Part shown: in pieces, positions 18,969-30,895 of the stretch
Position numbering within the stretch: position 1 is the first letter of the stretch
Layout of the letters: each line of letters opens with the position of its first letter
Origin: Firmicutes bacterium HGW-Firmicutes-21
Lineage (GTDB): Bacteria > Bacillota > Clostridia > Oscillospirales > CAG-382
Direction: 5' to 3'
Length of the DNA: 33,165 nucleotides
NCBI GenBank assembly: GCA_002841455.1
Contig: PGZT01000008.1
Location: 1-33,165, forward strand
Notes under the pieces: generated by a model
The model's database searches: none
Told to the model about the DNA's origin: nothing
The model's input: only the letters and a program-made list of their open reading frames with translations
Program-made: the position numbers and the translations under genes

Positions 18969-21950
18969 TTATTCATACAAGTTATAACTGCCCATGAAAT
19001 GCCGCTTAACCATCAGATAATCTATTGAAGTAATGTCGTCACCGCCCGCAACGCAGCCTGCCGCAAGGAAAGCACCCTCAAGGTTATAATTACCCATGAA
19101 TGCACGCTTAATGCGTAGATAATCAATGGCTGTAATTCTACCGTCTCCGCTGGTATCGCCTTTTATGACAATGGTATAGCTGTTCTGTCCGATTTGTATA
19201 ATACAACCCGTACCAACAAGGGCTGATCCCGCAAGTGTGGCACCGCTCGCATCCTTGACGGTTATAGTGCCGTCGAACATTGCGGTAACCTCCGTCACTG
19301 TCTGCAAGCTCCTGAGACCGTTTGCAAAATCATCCTCTAATCTCAGAGCGACTCCGGGCTTTAACGAAACATTCGTCTTAATGGATATATAACTGCCCGC
19401 AAGTGCCGTTCTGTTATTTATATTTATTCCGTGCAGCACAAGAACATCACCGACCTTGGCTGTGTTTGCATATGCTTTGTTTATGGCTCCATCGCCGCTG
19501 TCACCGTGAACACCTAATACAAAACCGTTTCCGGGAACTGTTTTAATCACATTGCTTCCGTTGCCGCTTGCGGTCTGGATAACAACATACGCTCCGATTT
19601 GCGGGTTCCACTGTGCCGCAATTGCCCTTGCCCAGTTTAGATTTGCATTATCCCCGTTAAGCTCCGGCGCATATCCGGGAGTGAATATAATACTATGGTT
19701 TGTAAGTATCTTGGAGTTGAAGCCCGTCAGGTATATTCCATCTGCAATCTGTACATCGCTCTTGTAAACCTCAAGCTCTGTGATGAACATAAACGGCTTT
19801 ATAGCACCACCCACCATATGAAACTTTACATATCTTCCGCTGACACCTTCCGCAAGAATCAGAGTATATTTTACATCGGTTCTTTGGATTTTTTCTGCGT
19901 TAGCTTCATCCGCTACGCTCCTGCACAGATTCGGCTGGTCTGCAACGGCTATACCCGCTTCGGTAAAGCTTACCCCGTCATCCGAAACAAGTATAACCAC
20001 CTTTGTGGGTGCTTCTATTCCCGCACCCCAATCGTGCTCCGAATAAGTAATGAATTCGGTTAGCTTGTTTTCTGTTTTATTTAAATCTATAATGACATCG
20101 TAATAGGGTTTGCCGTCCTCGGTTCCGGCCTTTAGAGAGCTGTGGAAGCCCACCCAAGCGGGTCCGTATGCGCCCGAAAGCAGCGAACCGATATTTCCGT
20201 CGGTTAATTCCTTATTGTCGGTATCCTCATAATTACCTGTCCATACTCCGCCTATTTTTGTATAGCTCTTTCCTTGAGCTATATTTATCAATGCGTCGCC
20301 GGTCATGTTCAACAACGCTCTGAGCTTCCTTGTCGCCTCTGCAATCTCCTCCGAGGTAGCGTCCGCATCGGCTCTTATGGCAGATGCTTCTTCGTATGTT
20401 TCCCAAATCATTTTAAGCACGGTATCGCTATAATCCTTGAAGTAAACTCCCGATGCCGCCGCAAGTGCGGCGTCCAGCTCCGCTTTACCGGAAATTGCTG
20501 ATTGAAGGAACATATATGCACGGGTGTAATCGCCCGGCATGCTGTTTGGGTTATCTAAAACCGCTTCGGCATTTGCAATCGCTTCTATGACCGCAGTTGT
20601 TGTGTTCTCTGCGTTATCCGCAATAAGCTGCTCGAGTGCGGTAACAATTTCTGTGTCCGGACTCTGTCTCTCGACTATATAGATACAGTTTGCGACATTC
20701 CGTCCATATGTACCCTCAGAGCTTTTAAGAGCGTATTCAAAATCACCGTTCGGTTTGGTAATCAGCATCTGTGTCGAGCCGCCTCCGTCGAGGTTATAGG
20801 CGGTTACACATCCCATCTGTACCATTATATCCGCAAGCTCATAAACCGTAAGTCCGGGTGCGCTGTCCGTAAGATTTCTGCCCGCTGTTGTTATCAGCAT
20901 TACCGAGCCGTCCGCTTTCAAGCCGATGGAGGACCTCTGCGCTCTTGCGCTCATAAAATCAGCGCCGAGCTGGCTAAGGGATTCCGCCGTATCCCTGACT
21001 CCGTTCTTTACGATGGGATACTGTGCGACAAGCGCTGCGTTTGCTCTCTCTGTGTACTGCTTGGATGCTTCTATTGTCTCACTGACTGCAATTTCAAAAA
21101 TGTCACCGACCGTAACAGAAGCCGCAACAGCCGCTTTAAGCGGCGAATCATTCTTGACATAGAGAACAAATTCATCCGCACCGACCGTGCTGTAATAGGA
21201 ATTTGTCCTTACCTCAAGCACCTGACCCTTAAGGTTTCCGCCTATTGTGAGCTGACCGTAGTCCAGCTTTTTACAGAGTATCTCAAGACCTGCGATAACG
21301 GAATCTGTTCTTGTTCCGCATTCGGTATCCCAATAATAAAATCTGTTGTCAACGGCGGTCGCCAATGATTTTTTATTTATATGAACAAGAGCGCTTGCAC
21401 CGCCTGAGGTTATCTCCGTTCCGTTGTGGTAAAGATTGAAATTAAGCTTTGATTGCACTATGTTCACTTGACCGTCCGAATCGAAGGTGATGATATCGTT
21501 CTGATACCCTAAGGTCGCTTGTGCAAGTCTGCCGTCATGCACCCAGTAGCCCGCATAGGTGCTTCCGGTATTCGTCGCATAAAATGTAGCGTTAATACCG
21601 CCGATTACATTTGCGCCGAACTGACTCTCCGCTTGCTGCGCCGATCTGTATATATCCGCTCCCGTGCCTGTCCACTTGCTGTATACATAAGGCATATAGT
21701 TGCTTGTGGTCGGATTAAACTCAAGCGCATATACCGCTTGCTGACGGCTTCCGCTGTCTGTAAACACCGCTTTTGAGTATGTAACGGCACCGTCCGTGGT
21801 TAGATTCCTGTTATCAACCGCTGTAATAATGCCCGTTCCAAGCGTTCCGCCAACGGAAAATGCAATTGCGGAAACCGACCCTGCCAACGACGACAATAAA
21901 ACCGTTACCGTCAGTAATAACGCAAGAATTTGCTTTTTTGTCCTTCTCAT
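18969..21950 (-). CDS. Secreted phosphodiester glycosidase (NAGPA)-discoidin-dockerin protein, paralogue A
   Basis: A 993-residue secreted protein. A signal peptide (1-28) leads to a NAGPA-type phosphodiester glycosidase domain (about 115-430) with GGINATFY, YAGYWVHDGR and NLDGGGSTQM. A helical FIVAR-like segment follows (about 435-550), then an F5/8-type discoidin-like domain (about 553-732, starting INIAQGKSY), two beta-rich regions (735-925) and a dockerin (about 930-991). The first dockerin repeat GDTSGDGRITAIDYLRIKR has the calcium ligands; the second (AGGDDITSIDYLMVKR) is degenerate. NAGPA domains cleave sugar-phosphate diesters such as GlcNAc-phospho-mannose. Secretion plus dockerin suggests attachment to a cohesin scaffold. 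Very similar to the next gene; substrate unknown. Confidence 0.85.
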   Translation of the reverse strand: MRRTKKQILALLLTVTVLLSSLAGSVSAIAFSVGGTLGTGIITAVDNRNLTTDGAVTYSKAVFTDSGSRQQAVYALEFNPTTSNYMPYVYSKWTGTGADIYRSAQQAESQFGANVIGGINATFYATNTGSTYAGYWVHDGRLAQATLGYQNDIITFDSDGQVNIVQSKLNFNLYHNGTEITSGGASALVHINKKSLATAVDNRFYYWDTECGTRTDSVIAGLEILCKKLDYGQLTIGGNLKGQVLEVRTNSYYSTVGADEFVLYVKNDSPLKAAVAASVTVGDIFEIAVSETIEASKQYTERANAALVAQYPIVKNGVRDTAESLSQLGADFMSARAQRSSIGLKADGSVMLITTAGRNLTDSAPGLTVYELADIMVQMGCVTAYNLDGGGSTQMLITKPNGDFEYALKSSEGTYGRNVANCIYIVERQSPDTEIVTALEQLIADNAENTTTAVIEAIANAEAVLDNPNSMPGDYTRAYMFLQSAISGKAELDAALAAASGVYFKDYSDTVLKMIWETYEEASAIRADADATSEEIAEATRKLRALLNMTGDALINIAQGKSYTKIGGVWTGNYEDTDNKELTDGNIGSLLSGAYGPAWVGFHSSLKAGTEDGKPYYDVIIDLNKTENKLTEFITYSEHDWGAGIEAPTKVVILVSDDGVSFTEAGIAVADQPNLCRSVADEANAEKIQRTDVKYTLILAEGVSGRYVKFHMVGGAIKPFMFITELEVYKSDVQIADGIYLTGFNSKILTNHSIIFTPGYAPELNGDNANLNWARAIAAQWNPQIGAYVVIQTASGNGSNVIKTVPGNGFVLGVHGDSGDGAINKAYANTAKVGDVLVLHGININNRTALAGSYISIKTNVSLKPGVALRLEDDFANGLRSLQTVTEVTAMFDGTITVKDASGATLAGSALVGTGCIIQIGQNSYTIVIKGDTSGDGRITAIDYLRIKRAFMGNYNLEGAFLAAGCVAGGDDITSIDYLMVKRHFMGSYNLYE

Positions 21951-22133: not shown

Positions 22134-25130
22134 TTATTCCGCAAATATGTCGTAGGTGTTAAGAAAATGTCTTTTTATCCTTAGATAATCCTTGGAGGTC
22201 GGGACGGGAGTTCCCTCAAGAGCGCCTGCTCTCAGCTGTACTGCGTTAAGCGTATAAGAACCTATAAAAGCTCTCTTGGCAAACAGATAATCACTGGAAT
22301 TTATCCTTCCGTCGCCGTTAATATCGCCTTTAACAATAACGGTATAGCTGTTTGATCCGGCTTGAATGACGCAGCCCGTACCCACAAGAGCTGTTCCGGT
22401 GATGGTGGCTCCGCTCAAATCCTTTACAGTAACGCTGCCGTTGAACATCGCCGCAACCTCTGCCACCGTCTGCAGGTTCTTGAGACCGTTAGCAAACGCA
22501 CCCTCTAACTTTAAAGCTACTCCCGGTTTTAACGAGATAGCCTCCTCCGCTGTCTGAATGGTGATATAGCAACCCGCAAGCGCTGTTTTGCTGTTTATGT
22601 CGATTCCGTGCAGAACAAGTATGTCGCCGACTTTGGCGGTATTAGCATATGCCTTGTTTATAACTCCTTCGCCGTTGTCGCCGTGAACACCCAAGACAAA
22701 GCCGTTTTCGGGTACTGTTTTAATCACATTGCTACCGTTTCCGTGTGCGGTCTGAATAACTACATATGCCTGTTTTTCTTCATTCCACTGTGCAGCAATT
22801 GCTCTTGCCCAGTTTAGATTTGCGTTGTCTCCGGTAAGCTCCGCCGCATAATCGGGGGTGAAAATTATCGAGTGGTTCGTTAGGATTTTTGCGTTATAGC
22901 CTGTTAAAAACATTCCGCTTGTAATCGGCGAATCGCTCTTGTAAACCTCAAGCTCGGTAATAAACATAAACACCTTTGTAGCTCCGCCCACCATATGGAA
23001 CTTTACATATCTTCCGCTGACGCCTTCGGTAAGGTTAAGAGTATATTTTACATCTGTTCTTTGGATTTTTTCTGCGTTAGCTTCGTCCGCTACGCTCCTG
23101 CACAGATTTGATATGTCTGCAACGGCTATGCCTGCCTCGGTAAAGTTTACGCCGTTATCCGAAACAAGTATAACCACTTTAGTAGGTGCTTCGATTCCCG
23201 ATACCCAGTCATGTTCCGAATAAGTAACAAACTTAGACAGCTTGTTTTCTATTTTGCCAAGGTCAATTGTAACATCGTAAAAGGGTTTACCGTCCTCGGT
23301 TCCACCCTTGTACGAGGAATGGAAGCCCACCCAAGCGGGTCCGTATGCGCTGATAAGCAGCGAACCGATATTTCCGTCGGTCAACTCCTTGTCGTCGGTG
23401 TCAAGGTAATTATTATTTGCGGTCGGATGTGTACCGCCTAATTTGGTATAGCTCTTACCTTGGGACACATTTATCGACGCTGTACCCTTCATGTCCAACA
23501 GATTTCTGAGCTTCCTTGTCGCCTCTGTAATCTCTTCCGAGGTAGCGTTTGCATCGGCTCTTACGGCAGATGCCTCTTCATATGTTTCCCATATCATCCT
23601 AAGCACGGTGTCGCTGTAATCCTTAAAGAAAATACCCGATACCGCCGCAAGTGCGGCATCCAGCTCCGCTTTGCCCGATAGTGCCGATTGAAGGAACATA
23701 TATACACGGGTATAATCGCCCGGCATGCTTTTTGTGTTATTGATTACAGCCTCGGCGTTTGCAATCGCTTCCACAACCGCAGTCGCCGTGTTTTCTGCGT
23801 TATCCGCAATAAGCTGCTCGAGTGCGGTAACAACCTCTGTGTCCGGACTCTGTCTCTCGACTATATAAATACAGTTTGCGACATTCCGTCCGTTTGCACC
23901 CTCATTACTTATATGTACTTTTTCAAAGCTTCCGTTTTCCTTGATCACCATCTGTGTAGAGCCGCCGCCGTCGAGGTTATAGGCGGTTACACATCCCATT
24001 TGTACCATTATATCCGCAAGCTCATAAACCGTAAGTCCGGGTGAGGAATCGGTTATATTCCTGCCTGCCGAGGTTATAAGCACAACCGTTCCGTCCGCTT
24101 TTAAACCTATGGAGGACCTCTGTGCTCTTGCGCTCATAAAGTCGGCACCGAGCTGGCTGAGAGATTCCGCCGTATCCGCAACTCCGTTCTTTACGATGGG
24201 ATATTGTGCTACAATGGCGGCGTTTGCTCTCTCTGTATACTGCTTGGACGCCTCTATTGTCTCACTGACCGCAATTTCAAAAAAATCACCGACCTTAACA
24301 GAAGCCGCAACAGCCGCTTTTAGCGGTGAATCGTTCTTGACATAGAGCACAAACTCATCCGCACCGACCGCGCTGTTAAAAGAGTCCTCTCTTATTTGGA
24401 GAACCTCACCCCTCAGCGTACCGCCGATTGCAAGCTGACCGTAATCCAGCTTTTTACAGAGTATCTCAAGCCCTTCGATAACGGAATCTGTCTTTGTTCC
24501 GCATTCGGTGTCCCAATAATAAAACCTGTTATCAACGCCGGTTGCCAAAGATTTTTTGTTTATATGTACAAGACCGCTTCCGCCGCCTGAGGTAATCTCT
24601 CTGCCGTTATGAAAAAGGCTAAAATTAAGTCTTGAATTAACGATGTTAACCTGTCCGTCGGAGTCAAAGGTTATAATATCGTTCTGATACCCCAAGGTCG
24701 CCTGTGCAAGCCTTCCCTCATGTACCCAATAGCCCGCATAGGTGCTTCCGGTGTTCATCGCATAAAAGGTAGCGTTAATTCCGCCGATTACATTTGCGCC
24801 GAACTGGCTCTCCGCTTGCTGCGCCGTAGCCAATGCATTGCTTCCCGTGCCTGTATATTTACTGTATACATAAGGCATATAGTTGCTTGTGGTCGGATTA
24901 AACTCAAGCGCATATACCGCCTGCTGACGGCTTCCGCTGTCTGTAAATACGGCTTTTGAAAATGTAACCGCGCCGTCCGTGGTTAGATTCCTGTTATCTA
25001 CCGCTGTAATAATACCCGTTCCAAGCGTTCCGCCGACATTAAATGCGATTGCGGATACGGTAAGCGACATTCCGCCGACCGTAACAAGCAAAGCCAGCAA
25101 AGCCGCTAACAGCCTCGTTCTTTTATTCAT
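22134..25130 (-). CDS. Secreted phosphodiester glycosidase (NAGPA)-discoidin-dockerin protein, paralogue B
   Basis: A 998-residue paralogue of the downstream gene with the same domain order: signal peptide (about 1-27), NAGPA domain with GGINATFY and NLDGGGSTQM, helical segment, discoidin-like domain (INVSQGKSY), beta regions and dockerin. It differs by a few short insertions and a different signal peptide. The first dockerin repeat GDINGDGRINSSDYLFAKR is canonical; the second (LEGTPVPTSKDYLRIKR) lacks most calcium ligands. A perfect promoter precedes it and a terminator follows, so it is transcribed separately from A. Long near-identical nucleotide blocks show a tandem duplication. Confidence 0.85.
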   Translation of the reverse strand: MNKRTRLLAALLALLVTVGGMSLTVSAIAFNVGGTLGTGIITAVDNRNLTTDGAVTFSKAVFTDSGSRQQAVYALEFNPTTSNYMPYVYSKYTGTGSNALATAQQAESQFGANVIGGINATFYAMNTGSTYAGYWVHEGRLAQATLGYQNDIITFDSDGQVNIVNSRLNFSLFHNGREITSGGGSGLVHINKKSLATGVDNRFYYWDTECGTKTDSVIEGLEILCKKLDYGQLAIGGTLRGEVLQIREDSFNSAVGADEFVLYVKNDSPLKAAVAASVKVGDFFEIAVSETIEASKQYTERANAAIVAQYPIVKNGVADTAESLSQLGADFMSARAQRSSIGLKADGTVVLITSAGRNITDSSPGLTVYELADIMVQMGCVTAYNLDGGGSTQMVIKENGSFEKVHISNEGANGRNVANCIYIVERQSPDTEVVTALEQLIADNAENTATAVVEAIANAEAVINNTKSMPGDYTRVYMFLQSALSGKAELDAALAAVSGIFFKDYSDTVLRMIWETYEEASAVRADANATSEEITEATRKLRNLLDMKGTASINVSQGKSYTKLGGTHPTANNNYLDTDDKELTDGNIGSLLISAYGPAWVGFHSSYKGGTEDGKPFYDVTIDLGKIENKLSKFVTYSEHDWVSGIEAPTKVVILVSDNGVNFTEAGIAVADISNLCRSVADEANAEKIQRTDVKYTLNLTEGVSGRYVKFHMVGGATKVFMFITELEVYKSDSPITSGMFLTGYNAKILTNHSIIFTPDYAAELTGDNANLNWARAIAAQWNEEKQAYVVIQTAHGNGSNVIKTVPENGFVLGVHGDNGEGVINKAYANTAKVGDILVLHGIDINSKTALAGCYITIQTAEEAISLKPGVALKLEGAFANGLKNLQTVAEVAAMFNGSVTVKDLSGATITGTALVGTGCVIQAGSNSYTVIVKGDINGDGRINSSDYLFAKRAFIGSYTLNAVQLRAGALEGTPVPTSKDYLRIKRHFLNTYDIFAE

Positions 25131-29197: not shown

Positions 29198-29316
29198 AAA
29201 ATTCGTCAAAAAACTCTGTTTGTTTTTTTACAGCAAAAAATCTTATCCGACATTATTTTACTTTGCACCCATTGCGTATCTTCTTCATATTATTACTATT
29301 GAAGGGAGGATATGTA

Positions 29317-29412
29317 ATGGGTTGCTTTGATGGTTTATTTGGCGGCGGCGGCGGTAGCTGTTGCTGGATTATTATTCTCATTGCTATTGTAATTGTTTGC
29401 TGCTGCTGCTAA
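29317..29412 (+). CDS. Tiny Gly/Cys-rich membrane peptide (31 aa)
   Basis: Too short for the ORF track. An excellent ribosome binding site GAAGGGAGG lies 7 bases before the ATG. The peptide starts MGCFDGLFGGGGG, has a hydrophobic run WIIILIAIVIV and ends in four cysteines. The Gly-rich head and single helix recall the YjcZ/YhfH-type small spore or membrane peptides of Firmicutes, but the cysteine tail is unusual. A possible promoter (TTGCGT, 16 bases, TACTAT) lies upstream. The structured RNA begins 22 bases after the stop. Function unknown. Confidence 0.62.
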   Translation: MGCFDGLFGGGGGSCCWIIILIAIVIVCCCC

Positions 29413-29433
29413 GCCGGTAAATGAAACATAGTT

Positions 29434-29695
29434 AAGGAAAGGGATATGCGGCTTTAAACGGTTAATATATGCCGAAAAAGTTCTGCCTACGGTCGTAAAA
29501 CGCCGACTTATCTTTAATGCACTGAGATAACGGGGATTTTCCCAAAAAGCCAACCACCGCAATGGTGTAGGCGATGGGCAACGCTGCTGCGTCTTTTGCG
29601 GAAGCGTCTTCTGCGGAAGCGTGTTCCTATAAAGTGTCTCTTCCTTGGGAAAAGCTACAAAAAACCGCTTACTACTTTGCGTATAAGCGGTTTTT
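29434..29695 (+). ncRNA. Probable structured non-coding RNA (class unknown)
   Basis: The ends pair: AAGGAAAGGGA (29434-29444) with TCTCTTCCTT (29637-29646). Inside, GCCTAC/GTAGGC closes a multibranch region. It contains GTCG/CGAC, TTATCT/AGATAA, GGG/CCC and CACC-GCAA-TGGTG hairpins. Two CTTY-TGCG-GAAG hairpins follow. A terminator with an 11-12-bp stem ends it at 29695. This fills the 413-base gap between the two tiny genes. No 6S, RNase P, SRP, tmRNA or T-box motif was recognised. It may be the 3' part of the peptide transcript or independent. The folding was done by eye. Confidence 0.5.
29660..29695 (+). terminator. Terminator of the structured RNA
   Basis: AAAAACCGCTTA pairs with TAAGCGGTTTTT over 12 bp across a 12-base loop, with the T run built into the stem and followed by CTCTG. 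Confidence 0.8.
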
Positions 29696-29825
29696 CTCTG
29701 TATTTATATCGTTTTTAAGCGTTTTTGGGCTATTATGGTATTACGCATTTGGAACAAAAACGGTTTACTAAAGGTTTATATTGGAAATAATATATAACAT
29801 ATACTCGTAAACGGAGGGATTTAGT

Positions 29826-29924
29826 ATGAATCGTTTCAAAAAGCTGCTCTATTTAATCACCCCCGCTTTAATTATGTCGGCGGTTCTGTTTATTTACTCA
29901 TTTATTGCAAACCAGTTCTTTTAA
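29826..29924 (+). CDS. Small single-helix membrane protein (32 aa)
   Basis: Too short for the track. ACGGAGGGATTTAGT precedes the ATG, a strong ribosome binding site. The peptide has a basic N terminus (MNRFKKLLYL), a single hydrophobic helix (ALIMSAVLFIYSFIA) and ends NQFF. It overlaps the end of the convergent ogg gene by 27 bases. A weak promoter (TTTACT, 17 bases, ATAATA) lies upstream. No family recognised; the ribosome site and clean topology support it being real. Confidence 0.55.
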   Translation: MNRFKKLLYLITPALIMSAVLFIYSFIANQFF

Positions 29925-30743
29925 TATATTCCGCTCGTAATAAAACAGATATTGCTGGGCAATTCCTGCATTTTTCCCAAAGTAATCGGAAGTAAAATCG
30001 GCTCCGTAATGCCTCTCGATAACCCGTTTTACCCATACATCCTTGGGAAACGCCTCATAAAACCCAAAGGCAAACAGCAGCACACAGTCTGCGACCTTAT
30101 CGCCCACTCCCTTTATCTCTGTCAGCTTGTCCTTTGCCGACGGGTAATCAAGCTTGCATATGCTGTCTAAATCAACTATACCGCTCGCAACCTTTTCGGC
30201 GGCATCAACTATGTATTTTGCTCTGAATCCGCTTTTTATAGGTGCAAGCCCTTCTATGCCTGCCGCAGCGACCCTTTCGGCAGGCGGAAAAGAATATACA
30301 CCCTCACAAATCTGTTCACCAAGCAAGGCGCAGAGTGAACCGATTATTTTTTTTATTCTCGGGATATTATTGTTTTGCGAAATAATAAACGAGCAGAGAG
30401 TCTCCCAGCTGTCCTGCCTTAAAATGCGTATGCCTGCGGTTCTCTCGGCAGCTGTTCTGATTCTGCAATCAAAGGACAGCTCCTTTAAAATACAGGCATA
30501 ATCTCTTTCAAGGTCAAAGTACCGCTCCCATTTCTCCTTAAATTCTTCATATGAAACATCGAATAGGGTTATTACATCGGCTTCCTGCTTCAATAACAGC
30601 TCCCTGCCGAATGCAACCCCGCGAAAAAATCCACCGTCCTCCTTTTGAAAACGGAAGCATTGACCGCATTCAAAGGTCTGCTCAAGGTCAAAATTATCGC
30701 ACGAGCTTAATATTATATTATTGTTTTCCGAAATAATTCTCAT
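29898..30743 (-). CDS. ogg: 8-oxoguanine DNA glycosylase/AP lyase
   Basis: A 281-residue HhH-GPD DNA repair enzyme that excises 8-oxoguanine. An N-terminal OGG domain starts MRIISENNNII and contains FDLEQTFECGQCFRF. The helix-hairpin-helix reads LTEIKGVGDKVADCVLLFA, whose lysine is the Schiff-base nucleophile, followed by the essential aspartate in FPKDVWVKR. Length matches bacterial OGG1-type enzymes. The track starts at 30755, four residues earlier, but the family N terminus and the alignment with leader copy 1 favour ATG 30743. It is divergent from the DUF6062-like gene. Confidence 0.88.
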   Translation of the reverse strand: MRIISENNNIILSSCDNFDLEQTFECGQCFRFQKEDGGFFRGVAFGRELLLKQEADVITLFDVSYEEFKEKWERYFDLERDYACILKELSFDCRIRTAAERTAGIRILRQDSWETLCSFIISQNNNIPRIKKIIGSLCALLGEQICEGVYSFPPAERVAAAGIEGLAPIKSGFRAKYIVDAAEKVASGIVDLDSICKLDYPSAKDKLTEIKGVGDKVADCVLLFAFGFYEAFPKDVWVKRVIERHYGADFTSDYFGKNAGIAQQYLFYYERNILKELVCNK

Positions 30744-30895
30744 ATTTATGACCATTTCTTCCCCGGCGTATGCCGAAAAGTATGAAACGCACCTAAAGGC
30801 TGCGTTTCACGATTGTGCCGCTTTGTATGTAATACAAATGGCTGCACCTCTTGCAGCCAAGGCACAAAACCGTATTTGAAAGATTTATCTTTCAG
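30744..30895 (-). promoter_or_regulatory. Structured 5' leader, copy 2 (upstream of ogg)
   Basis: Read on the minus strand: CTGAAAGAT/ATCTTTCA hairpin, ATACGGTTTTGTGCC, an 8-9-bp hairpin GGCTGCA-AGAGG-TGCAGCC, an extra hairpin TTTGTAT/ATACAAA, a closing stem TTGTGCC/GGCACAA, then GTGAAACGCA/TGCGTTTCAT, and CGGC-ATAC-GCCG next to the GGGGAAG ribosome site. Block order and the region up to the ATG match copy 1 at 3413-3503, with compensatory stem changes. About 60 extra bases are present here. Confidence 0.55.

Follow-up and report, generated by a model that had tools for sequence, protein, structure and literature searches.

The locus reported here shares features with several described RNA systems of bacteria. 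Like the present RNA, the raiA motif RNA (ModT, RF03072) is a multi-stem Bacillota RNA of ~200 nt with a terminator at its end and no obvious target gene, and it has been found in over 2,500 species (PMC11706538). 6S RNA (RF00013) has a similar size and paired ends, and riboswitches with terminator platforms likewise consist of a multibranched domain and then a terminator. In the type I toxin messages Fst/RNAI, BsrG and SprG, as here, a tiny hydrophobic peptide is encoded by a structured message with a strong terminator, the ribosome-binding site being placed in a stem. Sequestering of the ribosome-binding site has been described for type I toxin messages, and the toxins themselves generally bear cationic residues (PMC8309996).

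The evidence set out below supports the conclusion that positions 29434-29695 of the window (the whole 33,165-nt stretch of DNA that was analysed) carry a structured, conserved RNA outside any catalogued family.

Genomic context

The window is contig C85 of assembly G000 (1.55 Mb), which derives from an uncultured Bacillota bacterium. The genus comprises three known species, all of them metagenome assemblies: G000 itself, G001 (JAKPGJ, 'Bacillota bacterium') and G002 (JAQVPJ, 'Eubacteriales bacterium'). Spo0A is encoded in all three genomes. The initial annotation, made from the sequence of the window, had placed the RNA between two tiny peptide genes, and this is borne out: the 5' neighbour is the gene of a 31-aa Cys-rich peptide (micropeptide 1), while on the 3' side a terminator is followed by the gene of micropeptide 2. 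The neighbouring genes are as follows.

29317..29412, + strand: micropeptide 1, MGCFDGLFGGGGGSCCWIIILIAIVIVCCCC (31 aa plus stop), MGCFD...WIIILIAIVIVCCCC
29826-29924, + strand: micropeptide 2, MNRFKKLLYLITPALIMSAVLFIYSFIANQFF, with its own ribosome-binding site, overlapping the convergent OGG gene by 27 nt
29898-30755, - strand: 8-oxoguanine glycosylase (OGG) gene, convergent (Pfam OGG_N and HhH-GPD)

The placement is the same in G001 and G002, with the Cys-rich micropeptide gene on one side and the OGG gene on the other, and in all three species the RNA is situated between the stop codon of micropeptide 1 and a terminator. Elsewhere in the window, an adjacent pair of highly similar secreted proteins of ~995 aa with C-terminal dockerin-like repeats (GDTSGDGRITAIDYLRIKR) is encoded on the - strand (18969-21950 and 22134-25130), apparently as a tandem duplication.

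Folding of the RNA

The observation of a structured RNA at 29434-29695 is confirmed. Its minimum-energy fold (-87.8 kcal/mol, where shuffled sequences average -69.9; z -3.71) was better than all 200 shuffled controls, whereas the opposite strand folds at a z of -1.8 only. The assertion of the initial annotation that such a density of pairing is not expected by chance thus stands as far as none of the 200 shuffles matched it, but the single-sequence signal is largely that of the terminator: with the terminator removed (29434-29658) the z is -2.0, and the RNA core without terminator gives -0.2 to -1.2, which is not exceptionally stable alone. Since the terminator accounts for so much of the signal, and since 7% of 148 sampled 225-nt folds across the window reach a z of -3, this claim can, from a single sequence, only be regarded as moderate. 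The parts named in that annotation were all found in their places. The elements of the RNA are listed below.

29429..29433, + strand: closing stem, 5' strand UAGUU, pairing with 29653-29657 (window-G002 alifold consensus)
29434..29658, + strand: structured RNA domain without terminator (folds, conservation and alifold)
29451..29482, + strand: hairpin GGCUUU...AAAGUU with inner CGGU/GCCG (minimum-energy folds; outer stem in the window-G002 consensus)
29489..29507, + strand: hairpin CGG-CGU/ACG-CCG (folds, window-G002 alifold; G002 counterpart GCGGCUU/AGGCCGC)
29532..29545, + strand: GGGGAUUUUCCCAA, a small GGG/CCC hairpin possible in all three species
29549..29572, + strand: hairpin GCC-CACC/GGUG-GGC (segment folds)
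29573..29592, + strand: conserved block AUGGGCAAMGCUGCUGC, with a small hairpin GGCA/UGCU in the window and G001
29593..29619, + strand: tandem hairpins CUUY[UGCG]GAAG x2, or a single long hairpin (sequence, folds; fast-evolving)
29653..29657, + strand: closing stem, 3' strand AGCUA (conserved block; window-G002 alifold consensus)
29660..29695, no strand assigned: strong intrinsic terminator AAAAACCGCUUA...UAUAAGCGGUUUUU, which could work in both directions (fold)

The closing stem lies slightly beyond the bounds first proposed for the RNA, begins 16 nt past the stop codon of micropeptide 1 and can be formed in all three species (in G001, by inspection, through UAAUU and AGCUUA with a single bulge). 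It explains the presence of a conserved block right after the stop codon and of a conserved AAGCU before the terminator; at its 5' strand, the block AACAUARYURAG is conserved in all three species. Meanwhile the end stem of ~10 bp described previously (AGGGAUAUGC / GCGUGUUCCU) is present in the fold of the window but only partly formable in G002 and missing from G001, which lacks the 5' third of the RNA and the UGUUCC stretch, so that both strands are gone together. The inner stem GCCTAC (29485-29490) / GTAGGC (29567-29572) can pair as suggested, although the computed optimum favours a shifted UGCCUA/UGGGCA; by inspection, the homologous bases of G002 are GCCUGC/GCAGGU, with pairing kept and an A-U changed to G-C.

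Two hairpins inside the closing stem are common to the window and G002 and lost in G001; that at 29451-29482, missing from G001, has the counterpart GCUUU...GAAGC with inner ACGGU/ACUGU in G002. In the window and G001 the segment GGGGAUUUUCCCAA can alternatively supply the 5' strand of a long-range helix, UUUUCCCAA / UUGGGAAAA (29645-29653). At the site of the 29549-29572 hairpin, G001 and G002 carry other paired sequences instead (segment-fold shuffle p 0.06, 0.045, 0.014). The GGCAA block and the stretch of hairpins after it are kept in all three species. Both UGCG-tetraloop hairpins reported initially, CUUU[UGCG]GAAG at 29593-29604 and CUUC[UGCG]GAAG at 29608-29619, are present, and the pair can merge into one long hairpin, which the computed optimum favours. 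The strong terminator was located by folding at the 3' end of the RNA, as had been stated, and in its region 38 of 43 aligned positions are identical in G001. In G002 the terminator stem (L003:1240-1310, minus strand) has an inner palindrome inserted, ATAGTGT...ACACTAT, and GGAATAAGCTAC is repeated on either side of this terminator.

Conservation among species

The comparison of the three species supports a real, evolutionarily conserved folded RNA at 29434-29695 and provides stronger evidence than single-sequence folding. In local alignments against shuffles, conservation of the RNA core reaches z 12.4 in G001 and 8.0 in G002, and that of the 5' extension z 7.0 in G002 and 2.0 in G001, where most of the extension is missing. 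For non-coding control DNA the z was 2.9 and 0.1 past the terminator, and -1.0 and 1.3 ahead of the micropeptide gene; identity of the neighbouring coding DNA among the species is 68-72%.

The homologues that the initial annotation proposed to look for were encountered, lying at the same locus in G001 and G002. Against column shuffles, alifold gives z -3.3 for the window-G001 pair and -3.1 to -3.5 for the window-G002 pair. The window-G002 consensus holds 36 pairs, of which 21 are unchanged, 10 show one-sided and 5 two-sided changes, a tally to be read with the caveat that the alifold optimum avoids broken pairs by construction. A plain three-way MAFFT alignment of the RNA is not significant (alifold z -1.1), as it misplaces both the tandem-hairpin part and the 3' strand of G002.

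Distribution and family assignment

The RNA had been described as unassigned, and the search against Rfam agrees, with nothing in the window at gathering thresholds; under permissive settings nothing credible appeared to E 10 in 29200-29900 or to E 5 in the homologous loci. No match to 6S RNA was obtained at the RNA locus, and each of the three genomes has a single above-cut-off 6S elsewhere (in G000 at G000:C81:24186-24421). Likewise, neither the window nor, at E 1, any of the three genomes of the genus gave a match to the raiA motif RNA. A covariance model built from the cores of the window and G001, whose own members score 174 and 151.5 bits, finds G002 weakly (17.3 bits) at the right place and nothing credible outside the genus among ~780 genomes, 394 from the order and 391 from the class. 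Weak matches of the model in three class genomes (E 0.002-0.07 per genome, 391 searched) were taken as chance; the best of them overlaps a long reading frame, and the micropeptide context is absent from the loci inspected. A match at contig C25 of G001 sits at a coding junction and was also taken as chance, as were three matches of a pattern scan of viral contigs, found without the context of the motif, and BLAST of phages and plasmids gave no match. As far as sequence can show, the RNA is restricted to its genus. A protein-coding reading was rejected: the 65-aa frame 29574-29771 shifts frame upstream in G001 and has an in-frame TAA in G002.

Micropeptide 1 and its 5' hairpin

Nearly every sampled genome of the family carries a single copy of micropeptide 1, and weaker relatives occur in other families of the order; homologues were found at 10 loci and, within the order, in 29 of 245 genomes, and the peptide has no match in Pfam or NCBIfam. 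In other genera it occurs without the present RNA, the gene being followed by a different sequence, often with a short terminator. Upstream of the gene lies a further structure.

29267..29322, + strand: 5' UTR hairpin over the Shine-Dalgarno sequence (29302-29309) and AUG (29317-29319) of micropeptide 1 (folds, alifold)

This hairpin is better conserved than the structured RNA downstream. It folds at z -5.6 in the window, -5.1 in G001 and -3.2 in G002, and the stretch that holds it, 29251-29475, has the lowest z of the window scan (-5.8). The three-species alifold reaches z -6.1, nearly all changes in the 5' arm keeping the pairing. The three species share an identical 3' arm; in the 5' arm, a variable stretch of 12 nt differs and is still complementary, which random 12-mers equalled at a rate of 0.02%, 1.7% and 0.1% in the three species. 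A promoter of the sporulation-sigma type (AC-17-CATANNNTA) within the hairpin was also weighed; this non-random complementarity argues that the stretch is transcribed, although both could hold, and all three genomes encode Spo0A. Weaker hairpins sequestering the Shine-Dalgarno sequence stand upstream of homologues in four other genera (L012, L026, L071, L075), whereas in genus g5 (L014, L016, L019, L020) there is no such hairpin and the Shine-Dalgarno sequence is largely free. Release of the 5' hairpin through pairing of its CCCAU arm with the AUGGGC block of the RNA was dropped as an idea, the match falling, by inspection, from 8 bp in the window to 6 in G001 and to none in G002.

Transcription and possible function

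A consensus scan for promoters yielded one candidate ahead of the 5' hairpin.

29227..29256, + strand: candidate sigma-70-type promoter TTTACA-18-CATTAT (consensus scan, 9 of 12 matches)

With such a promoter the transcript would begin near 29263-29266, at the base of that hairpin; this is suggestive only, three such sites being found in the region against 2.1 expected. No promoter-like site was detected from the micropeptide 1 gene to the RNA (29413-29500), and the only terminator-like match in the scan from gene to RNA, 29491-29508, is inside the RNA. The predicted full transcript 29264-29700 and its counterparts fold at z -5.2, -3.9 and -6.0. A single transcript of ~430 nt would be the simplest reading. 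Transcription would begin near 29264, pass the 5' hairpin in which the ribosome-binding site and start codon are hidden, continue through the 31-codon gene and the multibranched RNA domain with its closing stem, and end with the terminator at 29695. Translational silencing by the 5' hairpin and a role for the 3' domain are inferred on this model: the hairpin would hold translation of the peptide off until opened by something, and the 3' domain would guard against degradation of the message, or of a 3' piece processed from it, or would have other molecules as its targets after processing.

That the RNA is the structured 3' domain of the micropeptide 1 transcript has, in our estimate, an even chance of being correct. 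Weighing against it are the small number of species (three, all metagenome assemblies), the modest stability of the core without its terminator (z -0.2 to -1.2, and -2.0 for the longer stretch), the absence of the 5' third in G001, the three-way MAFFT result (z -1.1), the weak promoter evidence and the occurrence of micropeptide 1 in other genera without the RNA. Since no promoter-like site separates the gene from the RNA, a 3' UTR is likelier than a stand-alone small RNA that would have its own promoter in or just after the micropeptide 1 gene and act in trans by base pairing or protein binding. The closed domain, with its closing stem just ahead of the terminator, and a conservation independent of coding sequence would suit such a small RNA, which we consider possible though doubtful; however, the conserved CATARY block that follows the stop codon has a pairing partner at the 3' end, which leaves no need to read it as a -10 box, and the RNA is never apart from the micropeptide 1 gene in the three species. 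Ordinary 3' intergenic DNA, that is, a strong terminator with decaying, functionless hairpin repeats, would agree with the narrow distribution, the tandem hairpin repeats, the large indels between species and the modest stability without terminator. It appears improbable, given that the RNA is conserved well above the flanking non-coding DNA, at a coding identity of 68-72%, and that its pairing is conserved above column shuffles.

Two further explanations take the neighbouring peptides as their starting point. The locus might encode a type I toxin-like messenger, in which a toxic hydrophobic peptide is silenced by the 5' hairpin and the folded 3' region and the antisense antitoxin is still undiscovered. 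Micropeptide 1 has fewer than 60 aa, is hydrophobic and, judged by its sequence only, forms one membrane helix with a WIIILIAIVIV core; its Shine-Dalgarno sequence and AUG are computed to be sequestered, and the 3' region is long and structured. Yet neither micropeptide 1 nor its homologues contain Lys or Arg, the gene is single-copy in nearly all sampled family members, a largely free Shine-Dalgarno sequence as in g5 would not be expected of a silenced toxin, and no antitoxin was identified, so that this explanation also seems quite unlikely. The view of the initial annotation that this is a structured RNA of no known family is supported, and the RNA proves to be conserved, but its alternative of a long-domain riboswitch is not supported, as the micropeptide after the terminator is separate, with its own ribosome-binding site, and in another genus is present where the RNA is lacking. 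Control of micropeptide 2, past the terminator, by a riboswitch or attenuator would fit the order of terminator and small gene in all three species. We nevertheless regard it as very improbable, because relatives of micropeptide 2 adjoin OGG in genus g2 (L015, L027, L033) without the RNA; moreover, in G001 no ATG, GTG or TTG opens the frame of micropeptide 2 at the corresponding position, no conserved helix competing with the terminator was seen on inspection of the three species, and no Rfam riboswitch was matched.

Beyond the preferred reading of a structured 3' domain, the message may be a dual-function transcript, combining a family-wide Cys-rich membrane micropeptide, locked by a start hairpin, with a new regulatory RNA domain confined to the genus and acting in cis or in trans; this we hold to be rather unlikely. 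If the micropeptide and the RNA domain do work together, they would form a compact case in which the message itself regulates a small-protein gene.

Comparison with known systems

The locus adds an RNA without a family, backed by comparative genomics, to an uncultured lineage, together with a conserved, uncharacterised family micropeptide whose message bears a strong hairpin predicted to block translation. Compared with the messages of Fst/RNAI, BsrG and SprG, no sequence relationship was seen and no antisense antitoxin was found here, and the present peptide lacks cationic residues, is rich in Cys and is conserved in single copy across the family. The difference from riboswitches lies in the lack of a consistently associated downstream gene, of a visible competing antiterminator and of a family match. 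Unlike raiA, with its more than 2,500 species and no match here, the present RNA is known from one genus, and unlike 6S RNA it occupies a locus other than that of the real 6S of the genome.
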